Translations under genes and position numbers: made by a program
The notes under the pieces: generated by a model
What the model saw: the letters and a program-made list of their open reading frames with translations, nothing else
Databases searched by the model: none
Told to the model about the DNA's origin: nothing
Shown here: piece after piece, positions 1 to 63,960 of the stretch
How positions within the stretch are numbered: the first letter of the stretch is position 1
How the letters are laid out: each line of letters begins with the position of its first letter
Assembly (NCBI GenBank): GCA_950295325.1
Contig: OX485808.1
Location: 5,334,501-5,398,500 of the forward strand
Source: Polytrichum commune
Taxonomy: Eukaryota > Streptophyta > Polytrichopsida > Polytrichales > Polytrichaceae
Direction: 5' to 3'
Length of the DNA: 64,000 bases

Positions 1-1
1 T

Positions 2-4637: not shown

Positions 4638-5575
4638 TTAGGAAGTGTTTGCGAAGTGAGGCCACCGAGTCTGAGTCATGTTCAGAGTTTGTGAAGGGTA
4701 TTGGATGGTGGTGGTCGAGTCCAACCACCACCTCTGGATTTTTTTTGAAGTGTTTGCGAAGTAAGGCCACAAAGTTGGAATCAATTTCACGGTCCGTAAA
4801 GGATGTGGATGGTGGCGGTCAAGTCCGACAACCACCTTTGGATTTTTTTTTATAGTGTTTGCAAAGTGAGGCACCAAATTGAAATCAATTTCACGGTTCG
4901 TAAAAGGTGTGGATGGTGGTGCTTGGGTTCGACCACCATCTCTGGATTTTTTTTTAAGTGTTTGCGAAGTAAGACCACCAAATCGGAGTCAAGTTCAAGG
5001 TTCGTAAAGGGTGAGGATGGTGGTGGTCGGGTCCGACCACCACCTTTGGATCTTTTTTTTTAAGTGTTTGCGAAGTGAGGCCACCGAATCTGAGTTAATT
5101 TCACGGTTTGTAAAGGGTGCCGATAGTGGTGGTCGGGTCCGACCAACACCTCTAGATCATTATTTTTTTGAAGTGTTTGCAATGTGAGGCCACCAAGTGG
5201 GAGTCAATTTCACAGTTCGTAAAGGGTGTGATGGTGGTGGTCGGGTCCGACCACCACCTCTGGATCTTTTTTTTTTAAAGTATTTGCAATGTCAGGCCAC
5301 CATGTGGAGGTCAATTTCACGGTTCGTAAAAGGTGTGATGGTGGTATCGGATCCCACCACCACCTCTCGATTTTTTTTTTAAGTGTTTGCGAAGTAAGGC
5401 CACCGAGTCTAAGTCAATTTCACGGTTTGTAAGGGTATGAATAGTGGTGGTCGGGTCTGACCAACACCTCTGGATCATTATTTTTTTGAAGTGTTTGTAA
5501 TGTGAGGCCACCAAGTAAAAGCCAATTTCACGGTTCGTAAAAGGTGTGATGGTGGTGGTCGGGTCGGACCACCAC
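4638..5575. repeat. Palindrome array A, left block (about 106-bp units)
   Basis: Nine units start with a TGTTTGCGAAGTGAGGCCAC-type box at about 4645, 4751, 4856, 4959, 5065, 5174, 5281, 5383 and 5491, a spacing of 102-110 bp. Each unit then has CACGGTTCGTAAAGGGTG and a palindrome of the form GGTGGTCGGNNCCGACCACC, extending to 12-bp arms in the best copies, then CTCTGGAT and a T-run. The 2-bp palindrome centre is mostly GT. The short frames in the array are artefacts of the repeat. The array is interrupted at 5581 by a solo LTR and resumes at 6560. Confidence 0.9.
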
Positions 5576-5580
5576 CTTTG

Positions 5581-6554
5581 TGTCGCGCACCTCTCCATGA
5601 GGAGTGTCCGAAACACCATGGGCACAAGGGGGACCCCGGAGTGACACCCGGGACTTGTGGCGCCGTTGGTGAGAGGGCCCAAGTGATCCTAGTGTGAGTG
5701 AGGGCCCCGGGCATTGGGAATGCCTCCCACCCACGAAGACTAGGAGGCACAAGGGTAAGGCCATGAGTTATGCGTAGCTCATGGCGTGGTGATTCTAGAA
5801 AGCTCAAGAACACCTTAATCGGAGGTGTGAGCTAGGAGTTATGGCCATTTGAGTGGGGCGCTGTCCCGGGACAGCGCCCTGGTAGAGCAGTGCCTGGGAG
5901 TGATTCCCGGGACTGCCAAGGTTCAAACAGGCATAACTTCCTGAATACTTGCCCGAATGGGGCAAGTGAGGAGTCCATCGGCATCTACGTGAAGCGTACA
6001 TGAAGATGGAGTGGTTGGTTGTTATGATCAGACATCATACAAGGAAGTTATGATGGTCTGAAGCTGCTAGGGGGTTCTAGGCCCAGCAGCTAAAGGAAAA
6101 TGTCCACTTGGCCCCAACTCTTGGTAGAGAGACAAGAGGTTGGTTGACGGTGGGGTAGGGGCCCCGCGTGAAGTCCTAGAGGCTTATATGGGTGAGGTGG
6201 TGTGGCCTCACCCACCCAAGGCCGAACGGCAAGGCCTCCATGGGCATTGGCCCATTGTGAGGCCATAGTTGCCTAGTATGGTTCGGGTTGTTGTAGTGTT
6301 GCTCCGGCAATGCAATGATCAACATGGGATTGGACTTCCATTGATGGAAGTCCACATATAGGAATGGGTTCCCGATTAAGGGGTGATTCCCGAAAGCAAA
6401 GTAGGAGGGTTGGTTCCCTCCTATGAACTATAAGGTCCGGGGTGAGAGGAACTAACCATTAGCATGGCGGTATGCGAATGGTTAGCGCTCGTAACCTTTG
6501 CTAGGAAATGAAAATTGGCAAGATGGTCAAGGAGGGCTAGCAAAGGTTGCGACA
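5581..6554. mobile_element. Solo LTR (974 bp) inserted in palindrome array A
   Basis: The element begins TGTCGCGCACC and ends GGTTGCGACA, so it has TG...CA ends with a 6-bp terminal inverted repeat TGTCGC/GCGACA. It is flanked by a 5-bp direct duplication CTTTG (5576-5580 and 6555-6559). Removing it plus one CTTTG restores the array context ACCACCTTTGGATC. These are the hallmarks of an LTR retrotransposon reduced to one LTR by recombination. No gag or pol sequence is present. A segment of it (about 5870-6090) reappears in inverted orientation in the 320-bp units at 7366-8570. Ty1 versus Ty3 type cannot be told from the LTR alone. Confidence 0.88.
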
Positions 6555-6559
6555 CTTTG

Positions 6560-7325
6560 GATCCTTTCTTTTGAAGTGTTTGCGAAGTGAGGCCACCAAG
6601 TGGGAATCAATCTCACGGTTCGTAAAGGGTGTGATGGTGGTGGTCGGGTCCGACCACCACCTCTGGATCCTTTCTTTTGAAGTGTTTGCGAAGTGAGGCC
6701 ACCAAGTGGGAGTCAATCTCACGGTTCGTAAAGGGTGTGATGGTGGTGGTCGGATCCGACCACCACCTCTGGATCTTTTTTTTTGAAGTGTTTGCAAAGT
6801 GAGGCCACCAAGTCTAAATCAATTTCACGATTTGTAAAGGGTATGGTGGTGGTGGTCGGGTCCGACCATCACCTCTGGATTTTTTTTTTGAAGTGCTTGC
6901 AATGTGAGGCCATCATATGGAAATGAATTTCAAGGTTCGTAAAGGGTGTGGATGGTGGTGGTCGGGTCCGACCACCATCTCTGGATTATTTTTTGAAGTG
7001 TTTGTAAACTCAGGCCACCGAGTCGGAGTCAAGTTCACGGTTTGTAAAATGTGTGATGGTGGTGGTCGGGTACGACCACTACCTCTGGATTTTTTTTAAA
7101 ATGTTTGCGAAGTGAGGCACCAAGTCGAAGTCAAATTCACAGTTCATAAAGGGTGTGGATGGTGGTGGTCGGGTCCGACCACCACCTCTTGATTTTTATT
7201 TTTTTAAGTGTTTGCAATGTGAGGCCACCAACTAGGAATCAAATTCGCTGTTCGTAGAGGGTGTGGACATTAGTGGTCGGATCCGACCAGCACCTCTTGA
7301 TATTTTTTTTTGGAAGTCTTTGCGG
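6560..7325. repeat. Palindrome array A, middle block (about 106-bp units)
   Basis: Eight further units start near 6581, 6682, 6787, 6895, 6997, 7101, 7209 and 7318, with the same organisation as the left block. Palindrome centres include GT and AT (the AT copies give an internal GGATCC). The first two units are nearly identical and therefore recently duplicated. Confidence 0.88.
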
Positions 7326-8600
7326 TGTGAGGCCTCGGAGTATGACTATAAGGGAGGGTTTCTTAAGGGTGGTGAAAGGTGGTGAAAGGTGGTGGTCGGG
7401 TCCTACCACCACATCTGGTTGCAGAGCTAGAAGCCCCTAACAGCTTCAGACGTCCATAACTTTCAGGTTTGATGTTTGATGCTCACATATGACCATTCTA
7501 TCAGCATCTACGTTTCACGTAGATCAGGATGGATACCTCACTTGCCCCATTCAGGCAAGTATTGAGGAAGTTATCCTTGTTGAAAGCTTCGCAGTCCGGG
7601 AGAGGTGCGTCACAGACCTCCACCTTTGGATTCTCTTTTGTTTTGATGTTCTTGCGATGTGAGGCCTCTGAATATGAGTCTAGGGAGTGTTTCTAGAGGG
7701 TGGTGAAAGGTGGTGGTCGGGTCCGACCACCACATCCGGATGCAGAGCTAGAAGCCCCAGCAGCTTTAGACATCCATAACTTTCAGGTTTGATGTCTGAT
7801 GTGCACATATGAGCACTCTATCAGCATTTACGTTTCACGTAGATCAGGATGGATACCTCACTTGCCCCATTCAGGCAAGTATTGAGGAAGTTATCCTTGT
7901 TGAAAGCTTCGCAGTCCGGGAGAGGTGCGTCACAGACCTCCACCTTTGGATTCTCTTTTGTTTTGATGTTCTTGCGATGTGAGGCCTCTGAATATGAGTC
8001 TAGGGAGTGTTTCTAGAGGGTGGTGAAAGGTGGTGGTCGGGTCCGACCACCACATCCGGATGCAGAGCTAGAAGCCCCAGCAGCTTTAGACATCCATAAC
8101 TTTCAGGTTTGATGTCTGATGTGCACATATGAGCACTCTATCAGCATTTACGTTTCACGTAGATCAGGATGGATACCTCACTTGCCCCATTCAGGCAAGT
8201 ATTGAGGAAGTTATCCTTGTTGAAAGCTTCGCAGTCCGGGAGAGGTGCGTCACAGACCTCCACCTTTGGATTCTCTTTTGTTTTGATGTTCTTGCGATGT
8301 GAGGCCTCTGAATATGAGTCTAGGGAGTGTTTCTAGAGGATGGTGAAAAGAGGTGGTCGGGTCCGACCAACACATCCGGATGCAGAGCTAGAAGCCCCAG
8401 CAGCTTTAGACGTTCATAACTTTCAGGTTTGATGTCCGATGCTCACATATGACCACTTTATCGGCATGTACGTTTCACGTAGATTAGGATGGATACCTCA
8501 CTTGGCCCATTCAGGCAAGTATTGAGGATTTTATCCTTGTTGAAAATTTCGCAGTCCGGGAGAGGTGCGCGGCAGACTACCATCTTAAGATCAGTTTTTT
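7326..8600. repeat. 320-bp higher-order units ending array A
   Basis: The string ATTGAGGA(A/T)(G/T)TT occurs at 7561, 7881, 8201 and 8521, an exact 320-bp period; the second and third units are almost identical. Each unit has a GGTGGTCGGGTCCGACCACC-type palindrome, an inverted repeat ATCTACGT/ACGTAGAT and an inverted repeat ACTTGCC/GGCAAGT. About 200 bp of each unit (CTAGAAGCCCC through GCAGTCCGGGA) is similar to the reverse complement of the solo LTR at 5581-6554. The block is therefore a palindrome unit joined to an LTR-derived fragment and then amplified. Confidence 0.85.
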
Positions 8601-8778
8601 TTAATAAAATTTTGTAATATGAGGCCACCAAGTTTTAGTCTAATGGAGGGTTTCTAAAGGGTGTTGGAGAGGTTGAGTTTAGTGTTTGAGTTGCATTTGT
8701 TTGATTTCTGTTTTGAGGGGTGATGTTTGATTGTTACGTAGACTGGGGCCACATAGAGTTCCTTTTGTACAGATTGGT
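8601..8778 (+). promoter_or_regulatory. Leader region of the ParB-methyltransferase gene
   Basis: This interval lies between array A and the first ATG. CCTTTTGTACAG ending at 8771 is a good 3' splice site eight bases before the ATG at 8779, so a 5'-leader intron is likely and the upstream exon probably lies in or near the array. No TATA box is convincing. Inference from sequence only. Confidence 0.35.
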
Positions 8779-11700
8779 ATGATGTCGATTGTGAGTGGAG
8801 GTGTGGAGGTTGCAACTGGAGGGTCATCAACAAGCGTTTCGGGGAGTCTTTGCAGAGGAACCATGGACTTGGAGGTTACGCACGGGTCGCCTGATGTAGG
8901 CATTGCACCAAGGAAGGGAAAGGGAAGGGTACGGCGCATTCCTCAGTCTGAGTCCAGTGAGAGTGGAGATCGCGACGACGGTGATGAGTCGCAACCTTCG
9001 CTTGGGATGGATTCGGTAGGGGATCATAGTCACCATCTTTCTGCTAGTTCTAGTCAAGGCCAGAGTAGTGGTGATGGAGGCCATTTTGAGTCACCTATGG
9101 AGCGTGCTCGAAGGCAAGTTAAGGACCTGACGAAGGTTGGGAACAATATGCAAGCCACATTACTCCATGGCAATATGTATGAGGTAATCGAAAGTATGAG
9201 GCGGCAGCCCGTCTCAAAAGCAGTCCTTCGAATTCCATTGTGTAGGATGGTTCACATGCCCATGGTTAGACCTACACTTCGATGTGATGTTGTTAAGTTG
9301 ATGGGAGCGTTTCGGTATGGGTACAAGCCCCATTCAGGTGTTATTTATGTGTCTGTGAAGGATGACGAGGGTCATATCAGGGTTGTCACTCAAGAGGATG
9401 TACAACAATGGAGCCCTTGCTGGATTCAAGAAAATAATACATTCGAAAACTGCTTGAAATCAGATCCTGACCTCGTGAGCTTGAGTGGCTCAATGTTCTT
9501 TGTTTATGATGGTAACCATAGGCTCTTAGCTTGGAAGGAGGTGATTGAAACTCTTCATGCTGAAGATCAACATTGGGTTTCAAAGAATGGTAATCCCGAA
9601 TGCGTTGTACTTGATACCGCTGGAGGTCGTGGAGATATCCTCACTGCCATGCACGATATTAACAGGTACTTTATTATTGATCTCATATTGTTTTTTATCC
9701 TCTTATTTGGCGCTTCACAATTTATGCAATCTGACATGCCAATTGTGCAGATCCAATCAAACGGCACATGTGAAGACTAGCTTAGTTCATATTCTTCACC
9801 GTATTCGGAAATACGGATCGTATGACATTGAGTACTTCAAGCCCATGCTTACTCCGGAGCAAATCAAATCATGCCTCACGAAGTCAAAGAAGACGTGGTA
9901 CCCATTTACTAGAGATTTGATGGTCAACTTCATCTTCAGTGTAAGGATCTCAATTCCTTTTGGTTTCTCCCTTATCCGCAATCATTTGATTTGAGAGTTT
10001 AGTTTTGATTTTGTGCTTCATTCTTCAGGATGACATAGTCCAAGTGGGTAGTGAGGCTGGGCAGTTATACTTGGAAGAGGTGGATGAAAGCATGCATAGC
10101 GATTCAGGACTCCAGGAATATGTTGACAAGGCTATTGCTAAGAAGAAGGAGGAGCTATTTACCTACTTCAACAAAGCCCAATCAGTTGCTAATTCAGCCG
10201 TAGGGGAGGGCTTCATGGAAGAGGTGAGTGAATTTTACTTGGATTTTGATTTCGACTCAAGACCTTAGCTCTGCCTCTGCTGATGCATTACTTCCTTGGA
10301 CATACAGGTTATTGCGCATTATAGTGCACACGTTGCTGCCAAAGTTGAGATGTCACTAGAAAAACTGCAGATGGTGGCAATTGCAGCGGTTGAGCCCAAG
10401 TACAAAGTGTGTTGGCTCAAGTGGTGGAACAGTTCAGAAACTGTTCGAAAGGACCTCAGGTTTCCAAAATACCCTGCTGGTGAGGACACGCTCAAGAAAT
10501 GGATGGACCGTGCTGCTCTTTGGGCAGGGATAGAGGAGAGTGCCACTCAAGAGCTTGTTGGTTACATAGCACTAGTGGGTGGGGTTGATAAGTCCAAGGA
10601 TGTAGAGAGTCTTGAGGACTACATTGACACTTGGCGGATTTGCCTTTGGGACAAGGCATTTAACTCCTTCTTATCTGGTTCTGATGCACACAATAAATCC
10701 CTTGTGTTTGATAAAGTCAAGGATGGGGATCTTCTTGTGAAGCAGCTTTGCCTCAGGTATGAGTTAGTTATTTATTCATTTCATTACATTTTATTTTTTT
10801 CAATGCCGATGGTTGCTTGCGGTTTTGCTTTAGTGTGATGTTATGTGTGCCTTGCTCATTCATGATTTTTTACCAATCTCATCTAGTGTCTTTTGCTGAA
10901 TTTTGAAGGTATATGAAGCACGTTCTTTTTAAAGTTGGGGCAATTCGGAAGCTACCTCCTTGTGTGCAGGGGTGGTGCGATTCTTCTTCACCGACCTTCA
11001 TCTTCTCAAAGGCACAGAAGAAGAACTTTAGTAGAGAGCATCTCATTGAATGTTGTTGGTACATTGAATGTCCTAAGGGCTTTGTGCCTGACTCAGAGTC
11101 TGAGATCAAGAAATCCTTAACTGTCACACAGGATCTCCCTAATGATGATGATGCACAAGAAGTTGAAGAGATTGTTGTTCTTGAAGTTTCACCTACCTTG
11201 GATGGAGAGAAGTCTTATGGTAAGAAGAAGCTTGCTGCGAAGACTTCAACAACTGGAGTGTCCAAGAACAGTAGAGCAATTGTTGCTTCAGTGGTTGCCA
11301 CTGGATCTGCCACAGTTGAAGACACTCTGATGGGCGAAGCTGATAGTGAGCCCTTTCTACTCACTTAGAGCCATGTGAAGGTACCAACTCCTCCCTCTCT
11401 ATCTCAGCATCCTTCTTCTGAGAGCAGACCGCAAGTCCTTGTCATCAACGACTCCATTCTTAAGCAGCAGCAGTTCTTTCGTGAGGTGCGCAAGTTTGTT
11501 GTATCATGCTCTCTTTCTCGCTCATGGAGAATCCACGGCGTGCCTTCATTGCGTGGAGCAGCTGACTTGGTAATTGCAGACTTACCGGAAGGTCTGCCAG
11601 TTCCAACTGTCTCGGTGCCATCATCAATAGTACCCACTTGGAATGAGAAGAGTGAAGACTACTTGCAGGAGTTGTTTGATTTTGCAGATGAGATTCTACA

Positions 11701-12832
11701 CGATAATGGTGTCTTGTTACTTTTTTTTTCCATTTGATAATGGAGAGTTCCTTGAGGACATTGAGAGGTTTTATGATTATTTTGGCTTTGCTGTGTGTAA
11801 GGAGTGGATGGAGGTCAATTTCTTGCCCATTAGCTCGGCAAGGATTCCCAATACCACCACGAACAGATTCAATATCCTTCTTCTCAAGCGGGTTTCGCGG
11901 CCCGAGGACTCCGTGTCTTGGACTTCTACATTTTCCATTCGTTATGTACCAGAGTTGGTGGCACATGGTGTGGACGTTGGCCTCAACAACACATTGATTA
12001 ATTTCTGCACCAATCCACTCATGGATGGTGCTCGACCGTGGAGAGGCCCAAGAGAGAAGGATGAGTACTTCTTTTCATGCCTCATTATGGCTCTAACCAC
12101 AGTCGGGGACTTGGTTATTGATGTTGCAGCTGCCACTGGTATGAATTTCACTTCATTGATGTCCTTGATCTGAATTCAAACTAATCACTTTGTGAATATG
12201 GTACTTATTACAAATTGTTGATTTCTTTGTAGGCAATTCTATTCGTGCTTGCAAGAGTACTGGCAGGCACGTACTGGGCCTGGAGAGTGACAAGAAGTTG
12301 TTTGGGGCTGTTCTTCAGCCTATGATGTCTATTGCTCCACCACCTCCACCTCCTCCACCTCCTCAAGCCCATGTGCCAATTGCAAAGAAACCAAAGAAGG
12401 TTGTTGCAGTGGAGCGGCGTCGTGTTGAGGACTCTGAGTAAGTACGTACCGCTTACTCTTTCTATTTCATTGGTCAATATTCATAGTTTTCTTAGAACCA
12501 TGATATCACTTGTGCCTAAACTCTTTAAAATGTTGCAATATTGTAGAGACTATCCTAGTCCAACTAAGAGTTGGAGACTCCCTTCGTATGCAGAAGAAAT
12601 TGCTAAGCTACAAGCCCTACAAGCATCTCCATCTCTCCAGTCAAATGCCTCTCCGAAGTATAACCCTCGTGTTTTGAAATTCTTAGATGTTGATGCAGAT
12701 GTTGATTTTGAGATTGGTTTGACTGACATTCAAGCCAGCCCTAGTGATTGTGTTGGTGGTTCTATTTCTCTATCCACCAGCTTTGTTGGTAACGGTTTGA
12801 TTTATGTGGATGATGAGGCTATTAGTGAATAG
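8779..12832 (+). pseudogene. ParB-like domain plus beta-class DNA amino-methyltransferase fusion, seven exons, one stop and one frameshift
   Basis: Exons: 8779-9665, 9751-9940, 10029-10223, 10308-10756, 10909-12138, 12233-12437, 12547-12832, all GT-AG. With one base removed the reading phases close to 1146 residues. Residues 1-110 are Ser/Asp-rich with a basic patch (RKGKGRVRR). A ParB/sulfiredoxin-fold signature, VYDGNHRLLAW, lies at about 242-252. Helical linkers follow. A permuted methyltransferase comes last: ADLVIADLPEG near 797 (motif IV position), DNGVLLLFF, then RPWRGPREK and GDLVIDVAAATG near 970 (SAM-binding motif I), GRHVLGLE, then a Pro-rich tract. Motif IV is not the usual (D/N/S)PP(Y/F/W), so activity is doubtful. 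Defects: in-frame TAG at 11366-11368 and a nine-T run at 11721-11729 where eight T keeps frame. These could be true decay or, for the T-run, an assembly error. Introns exclude bacterial contamination. Confidence 0.72.
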
Positions 12833-13930
12833 ACCTTAGTTTTGTTTTTCTCAACCAGTCAATCATATCTCCAATTTGGAGAGCCATTGTAATGGCTACT
12901 TTTATGTTTTCAAACTGTGTTAATCTCATTTTTACCACTGAATTACAACTATAATCAATCTTTGCCTATGGTGCATCCATACCCTAAACCCTCGCATGAA
13001 ACATGCATGAGTTATATGTTTTTGAGAGAAATTAGAAAAAGTTAGTATGGCTATAAAAATGAAAATAAGCTACAAAGAATTGAAGAGTAGAAGTCTTTGA
13101 GAAATCATAAGAGAGAAAAATGAAAATTAAGATAGATAGGGCATTGATGTTATCCAAAGAGTTAATCATTAGAAGAGATCATTGGCAAATAAACAACCCA
13201 AAAATGAGTTTTCTCAAAAGGAAAAATAAAAGAACAAAAATCAAGAATGTAAAAATAAAAATAAACAATGGAAAATGGATTAAAATTTAAAAAATTTAGA
13301 AATGGCAAATGGAAAAAAAACAAGAAGAAAAAAAAATTGAAGGTAATAAGTCTTTAAGACTGAGAAGTGAGGAAAATTAAAATTAAAGATGGTAGGGCAT
13401 TGATGAACAGAAGGGATGATTCACAATTGAACAACCAAAAGAATTAGGATTCTATAAGGGATAAATTAAAAAGAATGTTAATAAAAAGAAATTGAACATA
13501 GAAGATAATAAGTCTTTGAGAAGTCTTTAATGTTAATAAAAAATAATTTAAGATTGATTGGGCATGGATGTTAACCATTTAGTGAATAAACAAAAGAGAT
13601 TAGTGACAAATGAACAATCACATAAATTTTGATTCTTAAAAGGAAAATGGATAAAAGATATTGAGATAGATAAGTGAAGGCCGATGCGCGGCTCTTGAAC
13701 TTTGACCTCATCATGACGCCAGCCCTAATTGATGCATGGAAATTGTGATGAACCCTACACCCTAAACCAAAGCGGTGGAAACATGTACAAAGACTATATT
13801 TTTAGATTGAAAATCCACAGTTATACATATCAAAAGTTTAAATTAGTAATAAAGTTGTCAAAAAATTCCACGGTTATAGGAGTTGATTCACCTTAAAATG
13901 GCATTCCAAATGTCTAATTTATGCTCTTCA
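12833..13930. other. AT-rich intergenic DNA downstream of the ParB-methyltransferase gene
   Basis: The first 120 bases probably contain the 3' UTR. The remainder is A-rich with degenerate internal repetition (for example GATAGGGCATTGATG near 13134, GGTAGGGCATTGATG near 13391 and GATTGGGCATGGATG near 13555), spaced about 165-257 bp. No coding frame is recognised. Confidence 0.4.
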
Positions 13931-13934
13931 ACCT

Positions 13935-14160
13935 CTACTTTTTGCTCTCCGCTCTCCGCTCTTTGCTCGCATACGACCTTTCCCCACCTCTCAACCTTTC
14001 TAAAACTCTCCACCTCTCAATCTTTCTAAAACTCAAGCTCTCAAGCTTTCTAAAACTCTAAACCTCTCAAGCTTTCTATAACTCTCAACCTCTCAACCTT
14101 TCTATAACTCTCAACCTCTCAACCTTTCCTACTCTCAAGCTTTCTTATTCTCAAGGTTCT
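13935..14160. repeat. CT-rich degenerate tandem repeat
   Basis: About ten copies of a 20-25-bp unit like CTCTCAACCTTTCTAAAACT run in series, with variants CTCAAGCTTTC and CTATAACT. It begins with GCTCTCCGCTCTCCGCTCT. It is followed by a short GC-rich island at about 14200-14400. Confidence 0.7.
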
Positions 14161-16658: not shown

Positions 16659-17660
16659 GTTTACGAACGCACGTTCGTAAACGTGAGTTGGTAGCACATG
16701 TACAAGAGGTACATAGATATGATGTGAGTTGTTTACGAACGTGCGTTCGTAAGTTGATCACAACCGTACTCGACATTGAATTACTTATAGACAGAACTAG
16801 GCACGAAAATTGTGTCGATTATATACGAACGTACGTTCGTATATCTGCCTTCAAGACCCAAACGCACATGAATTCCCGTGTAACCGTTTTCTCCAACGGA
16901 ACATCTGATGATGGGATATTTACGAACGCACGTTCGTAAATATCACCTGGGATTATTTTTCAAGAATCCATAAACATTCCTTAATTTATACACTTCCGTG
17001 CATTGGCCACGTTAACAATATGGAAGTTAAATACGAATGCTCGTTCGTATTTCGCACTACCATTTGTGTCCACGGAGTATTATGTTTTCCAATTTTACGA
17101 ACGCACGTTCGTAAATACCACCTGTCCACCGTCCACGCATCCACCAACAGACCTATTGACGCAAGCATGTGTGGAGGACTACACCATGTTTAGGATAGAT
17201 ACGAACGCTCGTTCGTATTTTTCACTACCATTTATGTCCACGGAGAATTATGTTTTCCAATTTTACGAACGCATGTTCGTAAATACCACCTGTCCACCGT
17301 CCACGCATCCACCAACAGACATGTTGACGCAAGCATGTGTACAGGACTACACCGTGTTTATGATAGATACGAACGCTCGTTCGTATCTGTGCAATCATGA
17401 TTTTAATGATAGATGTCGATTGTCATTTTCCACTGGATATTGGATTTCATGTATCCCTGTAACGTGGCTATAGATATCTCTATTCGGACGTGTCCAATTA
17501 TTTTTGCCTAACACTGTCGCGGTTGTAACATACATATGATCGATGCTATGCATCCGCCCCTAAGTTTTGGTTGGAACTTACGAACGATCGTTCGTGTACA
17601 TAAGCACTCCATTTCGGCTGTAGCTAACGAACGATTGTTCGTAAACACTTGCCCATCAAA
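16659..17660. repeat. Palindrome array B: TTACGAACGNNCGTTCGTAA
   Basis: Eleven palindromes lie near 16659, 16731, 16820, 16919, 17030, 17093, 17199, 17263, 17367, 17578 and 17627; a twelfth core is at 17951. The core is TACGAACG-NN-CGTTCGTA with centres CA, TG, TA, CT and AT. The arms extend with covarying bases: GTTTACG/CGTAAAC, ATATTTACG/CGTAAATAT, AAATACG/CGTATTT, AGATACG/CGTATCT. From 17030 to 17390 two palindromes repeat with a period of 168-170 bp together with flanking sequence (CCACGGAGTATTATGTTTTC, CCACCTGTCCACCGTCCACG). The array precedes the gene at 18110. Confidence 0.92.
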
Positions 17661-18109
17661 TACACGCCCCTCAAATATGATGCTTACTGCATGTGAATAA
17701 AGTGGCAAGTATATTTTAGGTGCTCTTATAATATGTCCCATTTAGATTTTATTGTATATTGGGTTGATGTTTTCGTCCTCGCGTTCATGAATATATGTGT
17801 TTGTGTTGTCCCTTGGTGGTGGACAACCCTTCCAATGTTTTATTGGCGACTCCACCCAAAGCCCTTCACGGGTAATATATATTGGAATGGGGTTCCGTTG
17901 TGCAGGGACGTCTGAGTCCCGTCTAGGATTTGCATGTCATGGGGCTGTTGTCGAACGCACGTTCGTCTTCATATGTGAGGTCCCGCAACGGTGTGGCGAG
18001 TGTTGGTTGTGATTTTTCAGCCATATATGTAGGCATATCTCGTATCCGCTTTTGTATGCGTTGCGGTTGTTGTTGTGTTGGTCATTTATTGGTGGTTTGT
18101 TTAGGTTGG
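17661..18109 (+). promoter_or_regulatory. Leader of the first DUF7869-type gene
   Basis: This stretch contains the last array-B palindrome core (CGAACGCACGTTCG at 17951-17964) and ends with GGTTTGTTTAG, a 3' splice site just before the ATG at 18110. The second copy of the gene has the same arrangement (GTAGGCAG one base before its ATG), which supports a conserved leader intron. The frame is open upstream to 17930 but that part has no counterpart in the second copy, so I start the protein at 18110. Confidence 0.45.
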
Positions 18110-21100: not shown

Positions 21101-21246
21101 CTTGGAAGCTGCGCAAAGGGTCCAAAACAGAAACAATGACCATCCCCCAAAAACATATAGATTTTGCCAAAGACAACTTAGCACGTATTGCAGCGGCAGA
21201 AAATGACGCCGAGAATGGATATGAAGCGGAAGATGGAGATGTGTAA
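18110..21246 (+). pseudogene. DUF7869-type transposable-element gene, copy 1, with one premature stop
   Basis: Two exons, 18110-19586 and 19727-21246, join in phase (SVTG|MIAHG) to 998 residues if the TGA at 20035-20037 is read through. That stop lies just after DNCAKDNK, where copy 2 has SRYVF. A CGA-to-TGA change is one explanation. The N-terminal half has a Cys cluster (KDCCQRKCCQFF), EVCCTAWYTIH, and CTTCEKYKGLRDAH. The C-terminal exon has GHGDVKYAHYGLDFYP, QLDNCAKDN and VGHTHDDIDASFG, the conserved acidic motifs of the DUF7869 family, which looks like an RNase H-like (DDE) transposase; that fold is inference. Similarity to copy 2 at 55327 is strong by eye in the second exon. One further likely decay change is Arg to Trp after ASFG. 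It is otherwise open, so inactivation is recent. Confidence 0.82.
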
Positions 21247-23128
21247 ACATAACATAGGTGGGAGTTAATGGCGAAAAACATGGGCGATTAGTAGATTTGG
21301 TTTTTAATAGACTTAGTGGACTTGTCACACTCCATTGTGGTATACGTTTGGGATGTGCCATCCAAATTCATAAGAGCCTTACTTATGGGATGCGCACCCC
21401 AAACTCTATAATGACATAAACCTTTTGTTTTTTTTGGAGTGGATTGTTATTTTCCACATGGAGCTCACTTTTCATTTTAATTAAAATTCTCTATTTTTAG
21501 TAATAAGAATATCCTTTATGTACGAATTTTTAAATCGTCATGTTCTTGATGTTTCCAATATTCCGTATGCCCACAATATTGGCATCCCAAACTATGGGCA
21601 TATTTTATTTTGAGACTTTCAAAAGTCTCCAATTAACGAATATAGTGTTTTGTTTGTTTGATTGCAATGCCCCTGACAAAAATTTAGCCTACTACATTGG
21701 ACTTCATGAATGCAGTCATCCCACTAGCATAATAACAAAATAACTTTGTCCAAAGTAAATTACCCCAATTCTTAACATAAGTGGACGGTGTCAACACATA
21801 TACATCCCAAATAGTTTTTGACCCAAACTATTTTGCATACTTTCAAATCTTTCAGGAATATATCCTCCAATTGTAAAACAACAAATAAATACCAGATGGA
21901 TACCAACAACCATTTACAAGAAAACAAGAAGACACTATAAATCAAATGAATGAATTAGAATTTATCTATACCCAAGATGACGCTTTGATTAACTATTTTT
22001 GCAACTCATTCTCCTTTACATCACCAAATGGAAAACAAATACTCACAATAAATGTCCCTTAAATTCCATCACTTGAGTCATTTCACCTTGGAGATAATAT
22101 TGTGATTATAGTCACAATCATATGTCATTTCACTAGAGTCATGTCGGAATTTGACTGAAAATCACAATGCTAATTAATTTGCAAAATACAAAATTTCAAA
22201 AACTAAGTGAATCAAGTTGAAAATCAACAAAACAAATTTGTTTTGCAAATAGAACCACATGCACCCACCTCATGCAATAAATTTACACCATTAGCTGGAT
22301 TTGTCATAGCCAAGAGTTTCTCGAATCCATTTCTACGAATTGATATTATTGTTCTCTTGCTAGCATTAAGCATGGCATCCCATACCTCGGCAATCCTTGA
22401 TTGAGGAGAAGTTCCTCATTGTACTTACAAAATACCTCCTATGGCATCAAAACTATCTCATGATCTATAAACAACAAATAATGCATAAGTCTCAAAGTGA
22501 TATTTTAGAGGAACCCAAACACAACTGAAAGGAAGACAAATCACCATGCATCTTATATTGATATTGTGTGAAGATCTCTAATTTTTAGTGTACCAAGTAC
22601 CATTGACCCTCAAATAATTTCATAAATTATATTTTTAGTTGATGAACCTTATTTTTAAAAAATAAATAAATATTCCTTTTGAGGTGCACGAACCAGCTAT
22701 GGTGCTACGGTATCATGTTGACAAATGAATGTGGCCCGTCAGTTGATCAAATCCCAAGTATTGCAATTGTGAAGTTGGAGCTCAGTGAGGATGGCGTTCT
22801 TGTGTTGTCTAATTCTGAAGACGAGATTGTATTGCAATGAATTTCTCTAACACATCACCTTTCCTTTAAAAGAGTGCCACTCCTACACCTTCCAAAATGT
22901 CAAATAGATGTCACCTTCGACATGCACCAACATTAAGGGTGAATGTCACACTTGTCATCATTATATCTATGTCTATCCACTTGGCTTCCATGTGATCACA
23001 ACAAAATTTCAGGTGTGCGAGATGTTTAGAAAAATAACCAAAGTACACTTTGTACATGGGGTGGAAATACCTTTTCCGGCCTTGAGGCTCATTAGATCTA
23101 CCCAATGTCCGGGGAGAACCGGTATTTA
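21247..23128. other. AT-rich DNA after the first DUF7869 gene, no gene seen
   Basis: The 3' UTR and right end of the element should lie here, but no terminal repeat matching 16.4-16.7 kb was found by eye. Small frames (for example at 21540 and 22908) carry no recognisable domain. Confidence 0.3.
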
Positions 23129-53492: not shown

Positions 53493-55326
53493 CTTTAGAG
53501 ACCTAGAATATGTTTCTCTTCGCAAGAAAAATAATTCCTTGCAATTATTCCTCCTAAACAGATGTAAACTCTCTTAATTAAACAGTTATAGATGCCTCAA
53601 CCTTAGCGTAAGTCCTTAATGATAATTGACTTAGGTTGTACAAGTATTGTGGTCTTTTGTATGATGATACCAGGCCCACCAAACCTGAATACCGTAAGTA
53701 ATACAAGAATATCTTCTCGTTAGATGGGTTCTATCATATAATTAATGATACCATGGATTCACCTACATACCATACTTCTAACCTTCACTCTTTGTGTGTG
53801 CAAGTGGAACCTAACGTAAACCTAATGTAAGTAGGTGCTAAGATGACACAAACCAATACTTCAGCTAGGATTATATTAACAATTTCCGGTTACAGAAGGT
53901 CTTTTGAATAATTATTCGCCCAGGCGGTAGGATAGACCAATAGATGAGCTCCATGGACGAGTTTCTGTCGTGGAGAACAAGTAATCATGGATGAATGAAG
54001 GTGGGATGGGGGGGATGAATGAAGGGGCGAGGACATTGTTAGTTGAGGCTCGAGCTCTGTGTATTATATCAAGGCCATACCATTAATGATACCATGGATA
54101 CACTTGCATACCAAATTCTACTGTTGACTCTTGCATGTGCAAGTGGGGAAACCTAACATAGGTTAGCAAGGATAATTAACTTGGGTGCACAAAAATCTTG
54201 TGTCTCGTGATACTAGACCACTCATTGATTTGATTTTATTTTATTCAAGATGTTTTTCAAGACAAAATGCTTTATTATCATATGTGACTTTTGACTTAGA
54301 TTATTTGTGCCATTTTGGATGGATTAATCATACAAACCACAAGTTTGTATGAAACTTAAGGTCTTATATGGTCCCAAATGCATTTAGGGGCTAAGTTCTT
54401 TTCTACAACTAATCATACCATGCATTCACTTGTAGACCAATTCAATAGCATATGCAAGTGGAGAAACCTAAGGTTGAGGCATCCATAGTTGACCATGTCC
54501 ATTTAACTGCTCACTAGACTACCTACAATTCTATCTTAGATGAGATTTATCAAGGTTCATGCAAACGGAGTTAAGGTTTATGTGGTGGCAACTTTGTGTT
54601 CACTGAGAAACCAAAGTAGATGGCGGTATGAGTATGAATGTTATCAGCTACTTCCATTTGTAGCAATTTCTAGCAATTTCCATACTCATGATTTTATTTT
54701 TATTTTATTTTTAAAAAATCATTCTTCTTAGAAACTCAGAATATGATTCTCTTCGCAAGAAGAATAATTCCCCGCAATTACTCCTCCTAAACAAATAACA
54801 CTATATTCGTTAAATTGAGACTTTCTCTAGTCTCAAATTAATATATGGATCAAAGAACTTGAAGAGGCCCGAAACTATATTGTCAACAATCTCAATTATA
54901 TTATATGTTCTAATATCCCAAATCTATGATGTGCGGACATAAGCACATATGGTAGAGCACTTGACACCAACTTCATCAACAAAAACACATTGGGTAGAGC
55001 ACTCCAAACAAGTTTCACCCACAAAGCATATAAAATATTTTCTATTATTAGCATGCTCAATAGAATATAGACATTGCAACATACAAAGTGCCTGTAATAA
55101 ATGCATATTTTTTCATTCGACAATATAGTCCCAAACATAATAATAAGATGAACTTCATGTTTTTTTGAAATATAGTAAATGGATATTCATCCAACTCCAA
55201 ACAATATAGTATTCGTAAGTTCTACCCAAACTCTGCCCCAATTTTGAAGAGCACACATATAAGTAATTTATATTGCTATAATTACGTATTAAACTATAAT
55301 CATGCTAACACAATCCTACCAACTTC
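53435..55326. other. Spacer with an AT microsatellite and old direct repeats
   Basis: An (AT)n run lies at about 53460-53492. A segment with TCTCTTCGCAAGAAAAATAA and GCAATTATTCCTCCTAAACA at 53510-53565 recurs at 54735-54790. Text around GCAAGTGGAACCTAA (about 53800), GCAAGTGGGGAAACCTAA (54139) and GCAAGTGGAGAAACCTAA (54455) repeats degenerately. No gene is recognised. Confidence 0.45.
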
Positions 55327-58300
55327 TCATTCAACGTGGGTTGCTTCTTGTGCAATCCGAGCAAGGTTGTCTTTTGCAAAAGTTATGTACTTTTGAGGGA
55401 TGGACACTGATCCACTATGGTTTTTCCGTGGTTTCCATGCTATGAATATGGAATCTGTATCTACCCAAGATGGACCGTGCTCAGAATCCACCTTCCACCG
55501 AAAGTTAGGGTTTGTATCCCAGCCTGTATAATGCCGAATCACATCTTCATTCTTTGCTGTCGGTTGATAGTACTCCACTTGTATTTGTCGAAAATGAGGG
55601 CTGGAAGTTACAAAATTGGGTTTGGACAAAGCTCTTGCCACCCACACTGGCTTCGCATATGTCTCGTCTCCAGGACGCAAAATGAGCATATAACCTTCAT
55701 GACAATCCACTGCAATGCGGAAAGATGGTGGGGGACGACTACTAGCAGGCCCCACGTAATGGTCGTCCACATCAAACTCCTCTCGAACCTCTCCATTTCC
55801 CAAAAGACTAGGCTCCGAAGCTTGTACATCGACTCGTGTTTGTGGCCAAAATCCATGCCTCAAAGTATGAGGGCTATCTTGGTGGAGGTCTGCCAAGGCG
55901 GCACGAACACGTGTCCAATAATGTATCCAACTCCCATAACGATGCCAACATGATCCGCCAACATCCGCTATTTTCAAACTCTCCCAATATTGTATGAAGC
56001 CTGATATACCTTTCAAAATATCCTCTAAATTCTTCATGGCTATTGGCTTGCAAGGCCTAGGCTCCCCATCCGGTAACATGGTCTTTCCATCCGCATCCAC
56101 GCGCCACACAAGAAGACCCTCCGGCGGGCTCCAATCTTGTGTCGTGCACAACAACTTGTATTGCATGGCCGGGATACCATCGTCACGCATATAGAAGCGG
56201 AATTGTTGTGCCTTCGTATGCCCGATCAATCGGTGAGCTCCACTTCGAATATAAGGTTCTATAAATGCCTTGAAGTCTGGCACCTCCTCAATCATATGGG
56301 GGATGACAGGAACATTATCCAAATCCATGTACGACTTCATCAATAACGGGATTGTAGGAAAATCCTCCTCCCGCAACTTCATGCTCCACCGCCCAAAAGA
56401 TGCATCAATATCATCGTGCGTGTGGCCTACCAATAGGAAGGACACAAAAACCTCCTTGAAAATGCCTTTCCCAACCAACAACGACCAATATGCAAATACA
56501 TATCTACTTTTATTGTCTTTGGCACAATTGTCCAATTGGACACGCAAAGTGGGAGGCAACTTCTTGGCAATCACGGGTTCATTGGGTGGCTCTGGCAACG
56601 AATGGAAGCATACATCTTTTCCATCCAACACTACTTCATATAGAGGTGTTGAACCCGTGTTTTCAAATAACAATCCTGAAGAATAGGCTGGCGGTTTCTC
56701 TAAATCACGTAAAAGCCTTGCAAATGACCCTATCGTGTGGTTTGAATCTGCTGGATACAAATCAAGAGCATAATGAGCAAACTTGACATCACCGTGTCCA
56801 TGTGCAATCATTCCTGCAATGCCAACCCAACGTGATTAGATATAACTAAACCATTTTGAGTGAATCCATGTTCTCAAGTACATCACGGAATAAAAAAACC
56901 ACAACATTTAGGGTATGTCATGACATTGTTTCAAAGTTCACCTGTAACCGATACAGGCAATTTAAAAAACCCATCCGTGGCCTTGATTCGATTTGCAAAA
57001 CATGGGGAGGTTGTTTTGGCATGGTCCATTTTGTCATGGATGACCGTAAGAACCTCCAAGGGCCTAGAGATGGACAAAGCTCTATTTGTGTAGTAATCAT
57101 TACGGTGTGCCTCTTGCATGTTTACGTGCTTGAAATAGTTCAATTGATGCGCTGCATATGACTCGGTACCCATCGTGTGTGCATCCCGGAGGCGCTTCAA
57201 CTTCTCGCAATTATAGCACCTGGCAAATTTGTCCCCTCGTCTTTTTGTAATGTATTCGCTAAAGTTTTGTTTCTTGATTGCACTCAATTTTGACAATGAA
57301 ATCGGCTCCAACCCAATCTTCTCGCCAACTGCATTCACGTCCAACAATATGTCTTTCCATTTTGTGCCTGTGGGAAGAACTTTCTCCACAACCTTTTCAC
57401 CGGTTGTGAGTGTGCGTGTTTTGTGCGGCATTGCATCGGCAAAGGGGACAATGATGGTTGCTAGAGTGGCCGTTGTTTGCCTTGTTGTTTCCCTAGGCTT
57501 CTTTAAACCCACGTTACCATGGTGACGGGACCGGCGACCTTTTTTGGCATGAGCAACTTGTCTATAAAAGTCCGCTTTCGACACACCGTGAATGGTGTAC
57601 CATGCCTTACAACACACGTCTATGCTTTCAATGGTGATGACCTTGCGACCCGTCCCATTCACATGTATCGCCCTATGGACATCAAGTTTTCTTGTGGATC
57701 TTAGACGGAAATCACCAAGCCACATTTCTTCGCGGATGGCCTTCAATTTATCCCTTGGAAACAATTGGCAACAACAATGCACACAACAATCCTTTGTGGC
57801 AACTTCTCTAATGGACTCCTCCCCGAGCAACCTTTGACGTTTACAATCAGTTGCAGACGGAGCAGGACGTGCCAATGTATCGTACTTTCTTTGACCCTTG
57901 CGCGGCCGCATGTTTGATTGCACCTCCTTTTCGTTTTGCATGTGTCGTTGCTCATGTTCACGCAAGCTATCAATTGTGACATTCCTCAATGGCCACCTGC
58001 GGAGGGAGAACCTATGAGTGGGATCCACCTCGGAATGAACGACCGATTCCAATATGACAACCCCAACGTCCTCGGTGCCAAGCGGGTTTTCATCAATGCA
58101 ATCTTGCGGATGGGTGTTACGGCAAATCCCCTCCGCCACAACAACTCCACTATCGTTAAGAAGTATCACCTCCAAATTCACCCACGAAGCCCTTGAAAGT
58201 CCCGTACATTCAACAATGGGACACTGCGGTACGGAAGACGAAGGTAAATCCAAATGATCTTCATCCGCACTGTCAGCCATAGAAGCCTCCCCGACAATGT

Positions 58301-58379
58301 CTAGGTCATCATTAGATGCACATGGCCAAGTGGCCATGTCATCAGATGACCAATCCCCTATTTCACTAAACCCATCCAT
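55327..58379 (-). CDS. DUF7869-type transposable-element gene, copy 2, fully open (974 aa)
   Basis: Two exons (58379-56942 and 56813-55327) with a 128-bp GT-AG intron at the same position as in copy 1 (SVTG|MIAHG). The joined frame is 975 codons including the stop, with no defect. The start is chosen because GTAGGCAG, a 3' splice site, lies one base upstream of this ATG. Residues 1-60 are acidic. Cys clusters lie at about 198-204 (CCVHCCCQLF) and 255-257 (VCCKAW), then CYNCEKLKRLRDAH. The C-terminal exon has GHGDVKFAHYALDLYP, QLDNCAKDNKSR (Asp about 574) and VGHTHDDIDASFGRW (about 609-623), spaced acidic residues compatible with a DDE nuclease. It would act in the nucleus on element DNA. The fold and catalytic role are inferred. 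The upstream DNA is the 79-bp palindrome array at 58560. Confidence 0.82.
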
Positions 58380-58559: not shown

Positions 58560-60005
58560 GTCATCCAAATCCCATCCACACTTAGAGGCTGGGTTTGGGT
58601 CGAGCGACCCAAACCTTTTGGGAGGATGGGTTCAGGCTCAATACAGAGAGCACCCACATTTAGGGGGCTGGGTTTGGGTCGAGCGACCCAAACCTTTTGG
58701 CAGGATGGGTTTAGGGTCACGACAGGGAGCACCCATACTTAGGGGGCTGGATTTGGGTCAAGCGACCCAAACCTTTTGGCAGGATGGGTTTAGGGTCACG
58801 ACAGGGAGCACCCATACTTAGGGGGCAGGGTTTGGGTCGAGCGACCCAAACCTTTTGGCAAGATGGGTTTAGGGTCACGACAAGGAGCACCCATACTTAG
58901 GGGGCTGGGTTTGGGTCGAGCGACCCAAACCTTTTGGCAGGATGGGTTTAGGGTCACTACAGAGAGCACCCACACTTAGGGGGCTGGGTTTGGGTCGAGC
59001 GACCCAAACCTTTTGGTAGGATGGGTCTCGGGGGGGGGGGGGCACTGGCGAAAAACGTAGGAACTACGTGCGATAAAATATAGGGTCTTGTATAAAAATT
59101 TGGCGTAAAATTTGTAAAATTATTAGATGTAGTATAGGGTGTTCTGGGATTGTAAAACATGATTATATGTAATATAGCATTTGACAAAACATGATTAAAT
59201 TACCTAAGTGGTACATATAAAATAGCATGGAGAAAAAATGATAGTTTCAAAAATTAAATACTTTGCCACCAAAATATAAAACCGGCCCCACTTTAGACCT
59301 TTCAAAAATTGCATAAATGAAAAAAAATGCCGGCTAATTGCCTAAATACATTAGGAAATGGGGGCTATCAACCGATAAAATTTGCACTCTCTAGGCCCAC
59401 TCTCGGGTAAAAATTGAAAAATCTGAGCTACCTCCAGAAAGCTCGGCATTCAGCACGTGGCATTCAGCCATTTCCTCTACAGAACTCCCTGGACTCTGCT
59501 CCCGCCCTCTCTCACCCCCGCCTCCATCAACCCTAGTTGGCAGACCTCAACTTGGTGCAAGAGTGGCACTCTGCTTCTCTGAGGCCCTGGAACAATTGGA
59601 GGATTCGGCTTCCAAACAATCGAAAACAATCAAGCAATCACCACCGGAAGCCTGGACATATAAGTAATATAGGGTATCATAAAATCAACCATCCAAGAAT
59701 TTATAATTACCAATAGGGTGCAAATAATTACAACAATTTACCATTATTTCAAAAATTAGCATCCCTTATAATCCTTTCTCATAGGTAAATAGCCCCCATT
59801 TTAATAGGTCATTATCGCAGGTGTATGCAAAATATACAAGGGAGTGCCCCCCCCGAGGGATGGGTTCAGGCTCACAACAGTGAGCACCCACACTATAGGG
59901 CTGGGTTTGGGTCGATCGACCCAAACCTTGAGGCAGGATGGGTTCAGGCTCACAACAGAGAGCACCCACACTGTAAGGCTGGGTTTGGGTCGACCGACCC
60001 AAACA
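58560..60005. repeat. Palindrome array C: TTTGGGTCGNNCGACCCAAA in 79-bp units
   Basis: Palindromes begin at 58594, 58673, 58752, 58831, 58910 and 58989, exactly 79 bp apart, then at 59906 and 59984. The unit also contains AGGATGGGTT(C/T)AGG and GGGAGCACCCA. Centres are AG in the first six, AT and AC in the last two. An 831-bp hAT-like element at 59027-59857 splits the array; removing it and one 8-bp duplication leaves a 78-bp spacing. The array lies upstream of the leftward gene at 58379. Confidence 0.93.
59027..59857. mobile_element. hAT-like element with poly-G/poly-C ends (831 bp), inside array C
   Basis: The element starts CTCGGGGGGGGGGGGGCACT and ends GGAGTGCCCCCCCCGAG. An exact 8-bp duplication GGATGGGT flanks it (59019-59026 and 59858-59865). 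The site falls within the array unit, so the pre-insertion sequence is known and confirms the boundaries. No transposase frame is present. Internal ATATAGGGT motifs are shared with the 337-bp relative at 38761. Confidence 0.9.
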
Positions 60006-62129: not shown

Positions 62130-63180
62130 AGGCCGGGGCCGGGCGGCCAAGAGAGGCGCCGGCCCTCCTATGTCCCGCACCTAGGGGCAAGGACAACCAG
62201 GAAGGCAATCTCCCTAGGGTGGCAGGTGTCAACACCACAAGCCTCGCGGGCAACCACCTTCACCAAGGAGGTGTCGACACTTGGCAGGGTGTTGGCCCAC
62301 GAGGCTTCTGAGCCGTTGATGTGCCTGGCGCAATCTAATGGCCCGGATTCGAGGGTTTAGGGTGACCCCTTCCGCTCTCTCCTTCTCTCCCCTCCTTTTT
62401 TTTTTTTTTTTTTTTTTTCTTCATCTCTTCCTCCGCGCCAAGCGCCGCTCTTGGAAACGCCGCCGCCACTTTCCATAGCACCGCGCCAAGCGCTTCCACT
62501 CCCACCTGTTTATTTTGTCTTGGACGCGCCGCTTCCCGCTTCTTTCTCTTCATTTCTCTCCTCCTCTCTGATGCTTATCCTCCTTGGCTTTGATTCTATT
62601 ATGTTTCTCACGCATTGAATGACTTCAGTTTGGTTTTGTTGTGTTGAAGTCCTTTCTTGTTGCAGAGTGCATGCAGTGAGTGACATCAGATTAGGGTGTG
62701 ATAGAGAGGTAGTCTCCTCCTCTTTTCTGATTCTATTTTGTTTCTCTCTTCTTGTTGTAGAATGCACGCATTGAGTGACTTTAGGCAGGTTTTGTTGTAT
62801 TGAACTCTTTTCTTGTTGTAGAGTGCATGCATTGAGTGACATCAGATTCGGGTGTGATAGAGAGGCAGAGTTCTTTCAAATTAGGCCTTAGCTTGCAAGA
62901 ATCAGGGTGTTTGTGAGAGGGTTTTAGTGTGCTTGTGAGAATCACAGTTCATCTCAGGTGTTTCTGAGTGTAGATTTTTAGTGATATCATAGAGATTCTG
63001 GGTTCTGGTTCTAAAAATCAGATTTGAGAGCAGCTTGAAAGACTGTGATCAACAAGGCATACAATTTCACTTGACCTAATTTGCTTCATTTATTTAGGGT
63101 CCTGTTTCATATACAATGTATAAGCATTGTATATCTTGTCTAAACATTAAACATGTTATGGAAATTCAACAGTTTTGGGA
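62130..63180 (+). promoter_or_regulatory. Probable promoter/leader region of the right-edge gene
   Basis: 62130-62560 is GC-rich (GGCCGGGGCCGGGCGGCC) and contains a 23-base T run at about 62396-62418 and CGCGCCAAGCGC repeats. 62581-62872 holds a degenerate duplication about 156 bp apart (GACTTCAGTTTGGTTTTGTT and GAGTGCATGCA(G/T)TGAGTGACATC). Composition and position before array C' suggest a promoter and leader, but no transcription start is visible. Confidence 0.3.
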
Positions 63181-63930
63181 GACGACCCAAACCACAATTT
63201 AAAATCTAATAAAACATTGAAAATTGGCTTGAAAATTAAGTTAAAGTTTGGGTCGTTCGACCCAAACTCTTGCCTCATCATGTTTGGGTTGATCGACCCA
63301 AACAGTGCAGGGAGACGAAATAAACCACAATTTAAAATCTAATAGAACATTGAAAACTATCTTGAAAATTAAGTAAATGTTTGGGTCGAGCGACCCAAAC
63401 ATTGCAGCGTCATGTTTGGGTCGTTCGACCCAAACTATTGCCTCATCATGTTTGGGTCGATCGACCCAAACAGTGCAGGGAGACGAAGTAAACCACAATT
63501 TAAAATCTAATAGAACACCTAAAATTATCTAGAAAATTAAGTAAATGTTTGGGTCGAGCGACCCAAACATTGCAGCCTCATGTTTGGGTCGTTTGACCCA
63601 AATAAAGCATATACCCTCAATCCTAAACCCAACTCAAATGATGCCCAAATTAAAATCCTCCAAACATAAGGACTGGGTCTGGCGTCCCCAAACAGAAATT
63701 TATATTTAATGTTGCCAGAAATTGAAATTGGTGGACTCATAGATATAAGCATATACTATACTAATACAACAATACTCTCTAACGAGGACCTATCAAGAAC
63801 ACGCGCAACATGGGTTCAAGGTTTGGGTCGATCGACCCAAACCTTGAATTCATGATGTCAAATATAATAAATTTCTCTCAATCCTCCAAATGTTAAATGC
63901 ACTTTGCAATACTTTGGGTCGATCGACCGA
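63181..63930. repeat. Palindrome array C': same palindrome, 168-bp higher-order period
   Basis: TTTGGGTCGNNCGACCCAAA-type palindromes start near 63247, 63283, 63379, 63414, 63451, 63547, 63582, 63821 and 63909, with a half site at 63183. Positions repeat every 167-168 bp with centres in the order TT, AT, AG. Between them is AATAAACCACAATTTAAAAT-type sequence. One copy (63815-63848) is a perfect 34-bp palindrome, because its flanks TTCAAG and CTTGAA also match. Outside the palindrome the units do not resemble array C. Confidence 0.9.
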
Positions 63931-63960
63931 AACTGACATTCTCGATTTCTTGAATTACAG

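Follow-up and report, generated by a model that had tools for sequence, protein, structure and literature searches.

To our knowledge, few transposons have been described that encode a sequence-specific reader of their own. The combination of such a reader with arrayed sites is already known, and in passages of two reports the VANC protein is described as binding arrayed non-coding motifs of the VANDAL family to which it belongs and as removing silencing (PMC5735166, PMC10398659). In bacteria, part of another report describes the binding of ParB to palindromic parS sites (PMC8367383). Here, we examined a stretch of 64,000 nucleotides (the window) from the moss Polytrichum commune (contig OX485808.1, corresponding to C6:5334501-5398500 in the searched genome of 408 Mb and 64 contigs), in which an initial annotation had noted four arrays of palindromes (A, B, C and C′) upstream of four genes and had interpreted them as element-specific control sites. 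This interpretation was partly supported: the sites belong to whole transposons, and they might serve as the cognate sites of a putative ParB-fold protein that is encoded beside the transposase.

A site search that tolerated up to four mismatches recovered the palindromes of all four arrays (Table 1), and half-sites in either orientation numbered 23 (A), 17 (B) and 32 (C), against means of 0.15, 0.3 and 0.3 in 20 order-1 Markov shuffles. These means and the reversed-pattern controls, which returned 0 matches in every palindrome search of the genome, rule out chance repeats, and the site and half-site counts confirm that the annotated palindromes are real. The arrays hold perfect palindromes of up to 34 bp and are underlain by tandem repeats with units of 104–106, 320, 168, 78–79 and 36 bp, while B-type sites also occur at 17950 and, as a stray, at 34671 (three mismatches each) and a stray C-type site at 21347 (four mismatches). 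The two-base centre had been described as variable between copies, which holds for B and C but not for A, where it reads GT in 15 of the 17 counted sites. Likewise, a CG at the inner end of each arm is found within the window but is not a general rule, as the palindrome of a family that we refer to as F (GGTGAGGCA) has no CG at all and that of family E (CCCACGGGTG) has none at the inner end; most palindrome types do contain CG.

Arrays C and C′ had been assigned to two separate elements, but both lie inside one transposon (element C) and share the same palindrome. Four-base target-site duplications (TSDs; AAAT, ATTT and ATAA) were present at all three copies of which both ends could be read, and with its terminal inverted repeats (TIRs) and this fixed TSD length element C is a cut-and-paste DNA transposon by structure. 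Membership in CACTA/EnSpm was considered, as CACTA can be read from the third base of the TIR, but was rejected on account of the 4-bp duplications outside AACAC and the internal position of the arrays. Indeed, the sites stand 3.8 and 2.7 kb from the element ends, and the two genes concerned, a DUF7869 gene on the minus strand and a ParB-like gene on the plus strand, are divergent with palindromes upstream of each. Two copies of element C at C5:23306674(+) and C5:23380595(–), 74 kb apart and with TSDs ATTT and ATAA, were 99.8–99.95% identical over three compared stretches, one stretch of ~1 kb aside, and this near-identity combined with different TSDs points to recent transposition.

Element C contains 25 palindrome sites (at most one mismatch), located in arrays C and C′, in a first-intron repeat and further along. 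The first repeat in the ParB-like gene region comes after a splice-donor-like GTGAGTAT (so that "first-intron" is a label only), and in all this region has eight sites beyond array C′, at 65296–68674 (window numbering). Identity over the 22-bp flanks amounted to 0.67–0.71 within array C and within the first-intron repeat, 0.39 within array C′, 0.28 among the later sites and 0.28–0.34 between groups. Since the sites were picked by palindrome match, the constancy of the palindrome stems in part from site selection, and it is the unrelatedness of the flanks that matters: the palindrome is the constant part of these site groups, set in unrelated contexts.

Searches of the genome for exact palindromes gave forward counts of 9731 for C, 4086 for B (TTACGAACGNNCGTTCGTA), 1147 for TTTACGGACG, 644 for CCCACGGGTG, 155 for GGTGAGGCA and 50 for A. 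To see how far these follow the neighbouring genes, as the initial annotation had proposed, 20 of 150 listed DUF7869 matches, differing in frame length, were taken together with 5 kb upstream of each, and arrays were present at 17 of these loci (that of L012 being detected with up to four mismatches). The arrays were of five types, namely TACGAACG (B), TACGGACG (D), TTGGGTCG (C), CACGGGTG (E) and GGTGAGGCA (F). Relatives of the ParB-like gene beside array A (ParB-A) had arrays in six of the seven sampled cases, the sequence of the seventh (L034) consisting mostly of N, and added GGCACTGTCGG, GGGGTTCGG, GTGTCTCGG and AACCCTGTGCGT, which brings the palindrome types, A included, to ten, each tied to element families. 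In a tree of the 17 transposase sequences having both parts, the four palindrome types required three changes, which is the minimum and was equalled by 0 of 200 shuffles, such shuffles being easy to beat where near copies are present. In a second tree of 22 DUF-domain rows (with L012 still labelled as having no array), the six labels required six changes against a minimum of five.

Nor were the palindromes spread at random without these genes. The 50 exact A palindromes occur in seven places, each within ~6 kb of a ParB-A match and six of them with a listed transposase match as well. The first 100 listed of the 9731 C sites form seven clusters, all on contig C1, and two transposon families account for all of them, each cluster being in or beside a member: one falls together with DUF7869 and ParB-like matches from the lists, two stand within ~1.6 kb of listed genes of the type found at locus L035, and two others (L047 and L048) are DNA of the family to which loci L033 and L035 belong. 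At L033 and L035 a second array carries the C palindrome at 32-bp spacing in addition to a palindrome of their own, which is also found at L048, and one of L047 and L048, both with C sites, holds a frame that has 44.5% identity with its transposase-like counterpart in the element around array A (element A). The C arrays of this family are ~72–79% similar to those of element C copies over ~155–165 bp, a similarity that makes array transfer between the two families likely. The C arrays at L033, L035, L047 and L048 could reflect such a transfer or the use of another element's reader. As a pattern, element-specific sites with a co-evolving protein are well supported, but the C palindrome is common to two families.

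Among the matches listed, 47 of 85 DUF7869 copies had a ParB-like match within 15 kb (47 divergent, none on the same strand), and 27 of 65 A-type transposase-like genes had a ParB-A match within the same distance (27 of 27 divergent); these pair counts are lower bounds, since the match lists hold best matches only. The 85 scored matches to the DUF7869 frame of element C showed 97–100% identity and came from 1867 candidates. For families D, E and F, the far side of the arrays was examined after C and B had been seen, so that a ParB-like frame was expected there beforehand, and such frames were found in five of five places (D, F, E and two C-type places). The D and F frames lie at L037 and L038, F being recognised by motif and weak similarity. 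The two C-type places, the C1 clusters L045 and L046, had been picked from site lists alone and yielded the expected ParB-like exon at 81–83% identity. In family E, the stretch reaching 13 kb upstream of the DUF7869 match lacked a ParB-like frame, but the next 10 kb held one of 482 amino acids with NGQHTLAAC. This frame is divergent to the transposase and lies ~15 kb away from the DUF7869 match; the 0.8 kb preceding it contain five E sites, and the region behind it eight more (at most two mismatches).

Two further observations concern family E. Its two arrays (L036, L040) are ~12 kb apart, and a 7.8-kb inter-array part, 99.2% identical between two copies, has no frame above 105 amino acids in one copy. 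Downstream of its transposase gene, L039:2011-2427 (–) holds a fragment resembling the ParB-like protein of family D in the N part of the latter.

The AlphaFold model of the 471-residue frame of element C (ParB-C), built from seven sequences, contains a core that very likely adopts the ParB/sulfiredoxin fold. Over residues 281–410, the predicted local distance difference test (pLDDT) score of ten-residue blocks ranged from 52 to 82, and residues ~281–413 of this predicted model matched ParB and Noc at Z 9.7–10.6. More specifically, VIA-align placed Noc 7ng0 at Z 10.6 (root-mean-square deviation 2.2 over 96) and ParB 7bnk at Z 10.5, followed by sulfiredoxins (Z 6.7–7.8), SspE (3.6) and other folds from 2.9 down. 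With Foldseek, Noc, ParB and KorB made up the first 15 matches to the same model, the best E being 4e-4 and two values lying at or below 0.001. By sequence, Pfam and NCBIfam returned weak matches only for the ParB part, among them DGQHR at E 0.55, and phage searches with tblastn gave no match in one case and a single 31%-identity match at E 0.7 in the other.

These data suggest that the palindromes are cognate sites of a ParB-fold protein encoded beside the transposase, which would keep its own element expressed, a reading to which we assign a probability of roughly one half. Like bacterial ParB at palindromic parS, the ParB-like protein would act as a dimer that reads both half-sites. It would be loaded at the arrays in front of the transposase gene, at those in front of the gene that encodes it, and at sites inside the latter. 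The protein might then maintain transcription of the element, most simply by shielding it against silencing in a VANC-like manner; binding, dimerisation, spreading and de-silencing are all put forward here as proposals. As families split, site and reader would change jointly, with the result that each family mostly controls itself, and the sequences suggest such a family-specific lock and key between protein and DNA. The internal position of the sites, the near-identical TIRs of B and C beside different palindromes, and the layout shared by two transposase-like types speak for a control function read by the ParB-like protein, which is common to the elements examined and is also more diverged between B and C (43% identity) than open reading frame 2 of the transposase (63%). 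The likely reader is thus the ParB-like protein rather than the product of each neighbouring gene.

Several results weigh against this reading. The mean pLDDT of the ParB-C model as a whole is 44, the bacterial ParB Spo0J (1vz0) matched it at Z 3.4 only, and neither ParB-A nor ParB-C had a ParB family match in the sequence searches. The link between ParB-A and ParB-C is one of motif, with an hhalign probability of 3.5% (E 0.012, aligned at DGNHR/DGQHS), and this DGQHS/DGNHR motif is unlike GERR, which we take to be the CTPase motif of the bacterial proteins and which is seemingly absent here. As to the sites, those of element C at 67087, 68301 and 68370 and at least one in family E fall in open frames (long ones in element C), and in the array A units, where the test is free of site-choice bias, conservation was 0.935 in the palindrome arms and 0.887 in the remainder, a difference without significance (p 0.11). 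Three of the 20 sampled DUF7869 loci (L009, L013 and L014) had no array, L009 matching L010 over the last 686 bp only. Finally, two C-type and two F-type rows of the DUF-domain tree do not form single clades, and the presence of the C palindrome in the L033/L035 family, with its A-type transposase, breaks a strict one-to-one pairing of site and reader.

This last finding is what would be expected if the reader were not element-specific but a dimeric host transcription factor, whose sites the elements gather as strong promoters or enhancers. Nevertheless, ten palindrome types, each tied to element families, are hard to reconcile with a host factor, and the similarity between the C arrays of the two families lets transfer explain their sharing, so that we consider this alternative rather improbable. 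The transposase itself might also bind the palindromes, as TNPA/TNP1 do in CACTA subterminal repeats according to parts of PMC2613891, either for end synapsis or for repression of its own promoter, and both the tracking of palindrome type with transposase clade and the position of the arrays directly upstream of the transposase gene would suit such a role. Recognition of the ends is argued against by the internal rather than subterminal sites, by the TIRs of B and C, which are alike in 26 of 28 bases although their palindromes differ, and by the recurrence of the same layout with a second transposase-like type; moreover, the sites run through the ParB-like gene region of family E. The transposase is thus an unlikely reader.

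A read-out without a dedicated sequence reader, through DNA or RNA structure (cruciform or hairpin) or through symmetric CG methylation, appears very unlikely. The perfect palindromes and the CG in most types would be compatible with it, but structure alone needs no fixed sequence in unrelated contexts, and CG methylation, which the initial annotation had offered as one possible read-out, is excluded as the general one because of the CG-less palindrome of family F, family E having none at the inner end. That the palindromes were passively amplified with repeat units and carry no meaning is hardly credible, for although most sites lie in tandem repeats and the array A palindrome does not stand out from its unit, element C has its palindrome in several unrelated units and as single sites, and ten array families have different palindromes.

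If the palindromes are read by the ParB-like protein, a more far-reaching version can be imagined, in which a ParB-parS-like module operates in full: a ParB-fold clamp would slide over the element, mark it as self and bar silencing, a NIF phosphatase would act on RNA polymerase II, and at least two transposase types and about ten specificities would coexist in one genome. We regard this extension as doubtful. Its phosphatase component refers to frames of the NIF/FCP1 type that come after the ParB-like frame in C and E (Table 1) and are possibly part of the ParB-like gene; apart from NIF, Pfam scans of the ParB-like frames gave nothing above the family cut-off, the VANC sequence not being compared directly.

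The DUF7869 protein is likely the transposase of these elements. Pfam states no function for DUF7869 (PF25273), to which element C has a clear match (Table 1), whereas in the present elements, which have TIRs and 4-bp TSDs, it forms the transposase-like gene. Its alignment shows conserved D-x-MD, DNC and GHTHEDxD-like motifs, and its AlphaFold model is poor (mean pLDDT 43). Element B, which ends at 21649, likewise carries DUF7869. The absence of any frame of at least 90 amino acids between element A and 16609 (examined from 14156) suggests that this copy is probably truncated.

Element A represents the second transposase-like type. Array A had been placed upstream of one gene, which holds for the gene on its right, but a second gene lies on its left (2–2059, –), divergent to that at 8731 (+). 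This left gene had no Pfam family at E ≤ 0.1 (only DUF7339, at 0.14, up to E ≤ 10) and no MULE match in Pfam; sequence motifs and TSD length suggest that it may encode a transposase, perhaps a Mutator-like one. The copy in the window has a possible 9-bp TSD (ACCTCTCAA), but its flanks lie in a tandem repeat, and no TSD was seen at the ends of the copy on contig C7. For the ParB-A gene, 118 genome matches were found, and the motif IPLCRM...RP...DGNHR was seen in the alignment of its relatives. Its ParB part had no Pfam match, another member of the alignment matching RNF180_C at 0.35 only, and a PDB sequence search with the alignment gave five weak matches, none of them a ParB. The methyltransferase that the initial annotation had placed in this gene is hinted at only, by a match of the joined later frames to N6_N4_Mtase at E 0.29.

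Elsewhere in the window, a tnp2 transposase fragment at 51776–52750 (+; PF02992, E 5.7e-64) adjoins element C, and 49316–50045 is occupied by several tandem repeats, their units ranging from 12 to 66 bp; AAACCCT occurs in many of these repeats.

Table 1. Positions of the elements, genes and palindrome arrays. Coordinates are those of the window unless a contig or another stretch is named; stretch L001 runs on rightward from the window, L001:37-1449 being window 63937-65349.
Feature	Position	Strand	Details
Element A	1..13985; left end C6:5332005, ~2.5 kb left of window		homology with C7 copy stops at L041:2005 and window 13985
Element A transposase-like gene	2..2059	–	65 scored genome matches
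Array A	4638..8569		19 sites GGTGGTCGG-NN-CCGACCACC, at 4710-8352
ParB-A gene	8731..12829, limits estimated from frames	+	ParB motif of the DGNHR type, possibly followed by degenerate methyltransferase exons
Array B	16659..17643		11 sites TACGAACG-NN-CGTTCGTA, at 16662-17626
Element B DUF7869 gene	17927..21246; long frames 17927-19597, 20038-21246	+	PF25273, E 1.4e-21 in second frame
Element B TIR	21622..21649	–	AACACTATATTCGTTAATTGGAGACTTT; 26/28 bases as in element C
Element C	54797 to ~71351 (L001:7451)		~16.55 kb, right part beyond window; homology between copies stops at both TIRs
Element C TSD	left 54793..54796; right L001:7452-7455		AAAT, flanking the TIRs
Element C TIR	54797..54824	+	28 bp, AACACTATATTCGTTAAATTGAGACTTT
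Element C DUF7869 transposase-like gene	55327..58379; frames 56931-58409, 55327-56835	–	PF25273, E 4.2e-42
Array C	58592..60004		8 sites TTTGGGTCG-NN-CGACCCAAA, at 58594-59984
Array C′	63245..63932		9 sites, palindrome of array C, at 63247-63913
Element C ParB-like gene, start	63937..64000 in window; frame L001:37-1449	+	predicted ParB fold
Element C NIF/FCP1-type phosphatase frame	L001:5214-6062		PF03031, E 1.8e-11; after ParB-like frame
Family E NIF/FCP1-type phosphatase frame	L044:1362-2183	–	PF03031, E 4.6e-11; after ParB-like frame

In a single genome, about ten palindrome types and candidate readers for them occur together with thousands of sites and intact recent copies, and the bacterial relatives of the candidate reader fold read palindromes. 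Such a system would permit a direct test of the escape of transposons from silencing by self-marking, of the joint change of reader and site, and of whether a eukaryotic ParB fold has kept its use as a DNA clamp.

The initial annotation knew of no description of such a system; in titles and abstract starts of the open-access literature we found no paper dealing with DUF7869, with ParB in transposons of mosses or with the present genome, but VANC/VANDAL of Arabidopsis is a close functional analogue, as far as the relevant passages of PMC5735166 go. Like the VANDAL elements described in parts of two reports (PMC5735166, PMC10398659), the transposons seen here pair a transposase with a second protein. 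In both systems, tandem repeats hold family-specific motifs, which are arrayed ahead of the transposase gene and also occur within the second gene's region. The same passages describe a motif that shifts between families and that an unrelated element may share (AT9TSD1 with VANC6 motifs). On the other hand, the VANC motifs as described there are short and of one orientation, whereas the sites here are palindromes, and anti-silencing, which is shown for VANC in those passages, is proposed here by analogy. The protein side differs as well: the candidate reader here has a predicted ParB fold, a NIF phosphatase frame is present, and the transposase is of the DUF7869 or another type.

Parts of a report on a soybean CACTA element likewise describe an element-encoded DNA-binding protein (TNPA/TNP1) and family-specific repeated motifs proposed to co-evolve, but these motifs are subterminal, beside 13-bp CACTA ends, and the TSD is 3 bp (PMC2613891), in contrast to the internal sites, the TIR beginning AACACTATATTCG and the 4-bp TSD found here. 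With bacterial ParB-parS the elements would share the predicted core fold (best rows Noc, ParB, PadC and KorB, Z 8.8–10.6, with Noc and KorB matched by structure) and palindromic sites of a size comparable to that given in parts of PMC8367383, while differing in that they are eukaryotic transposons with a DGQHS/DGNHR motif and arrays of family-specific palindromes. As far as the literature seen here extends, it is the ParB-fold candidate, the palindromic sites and the sharing between transposase types that are new.

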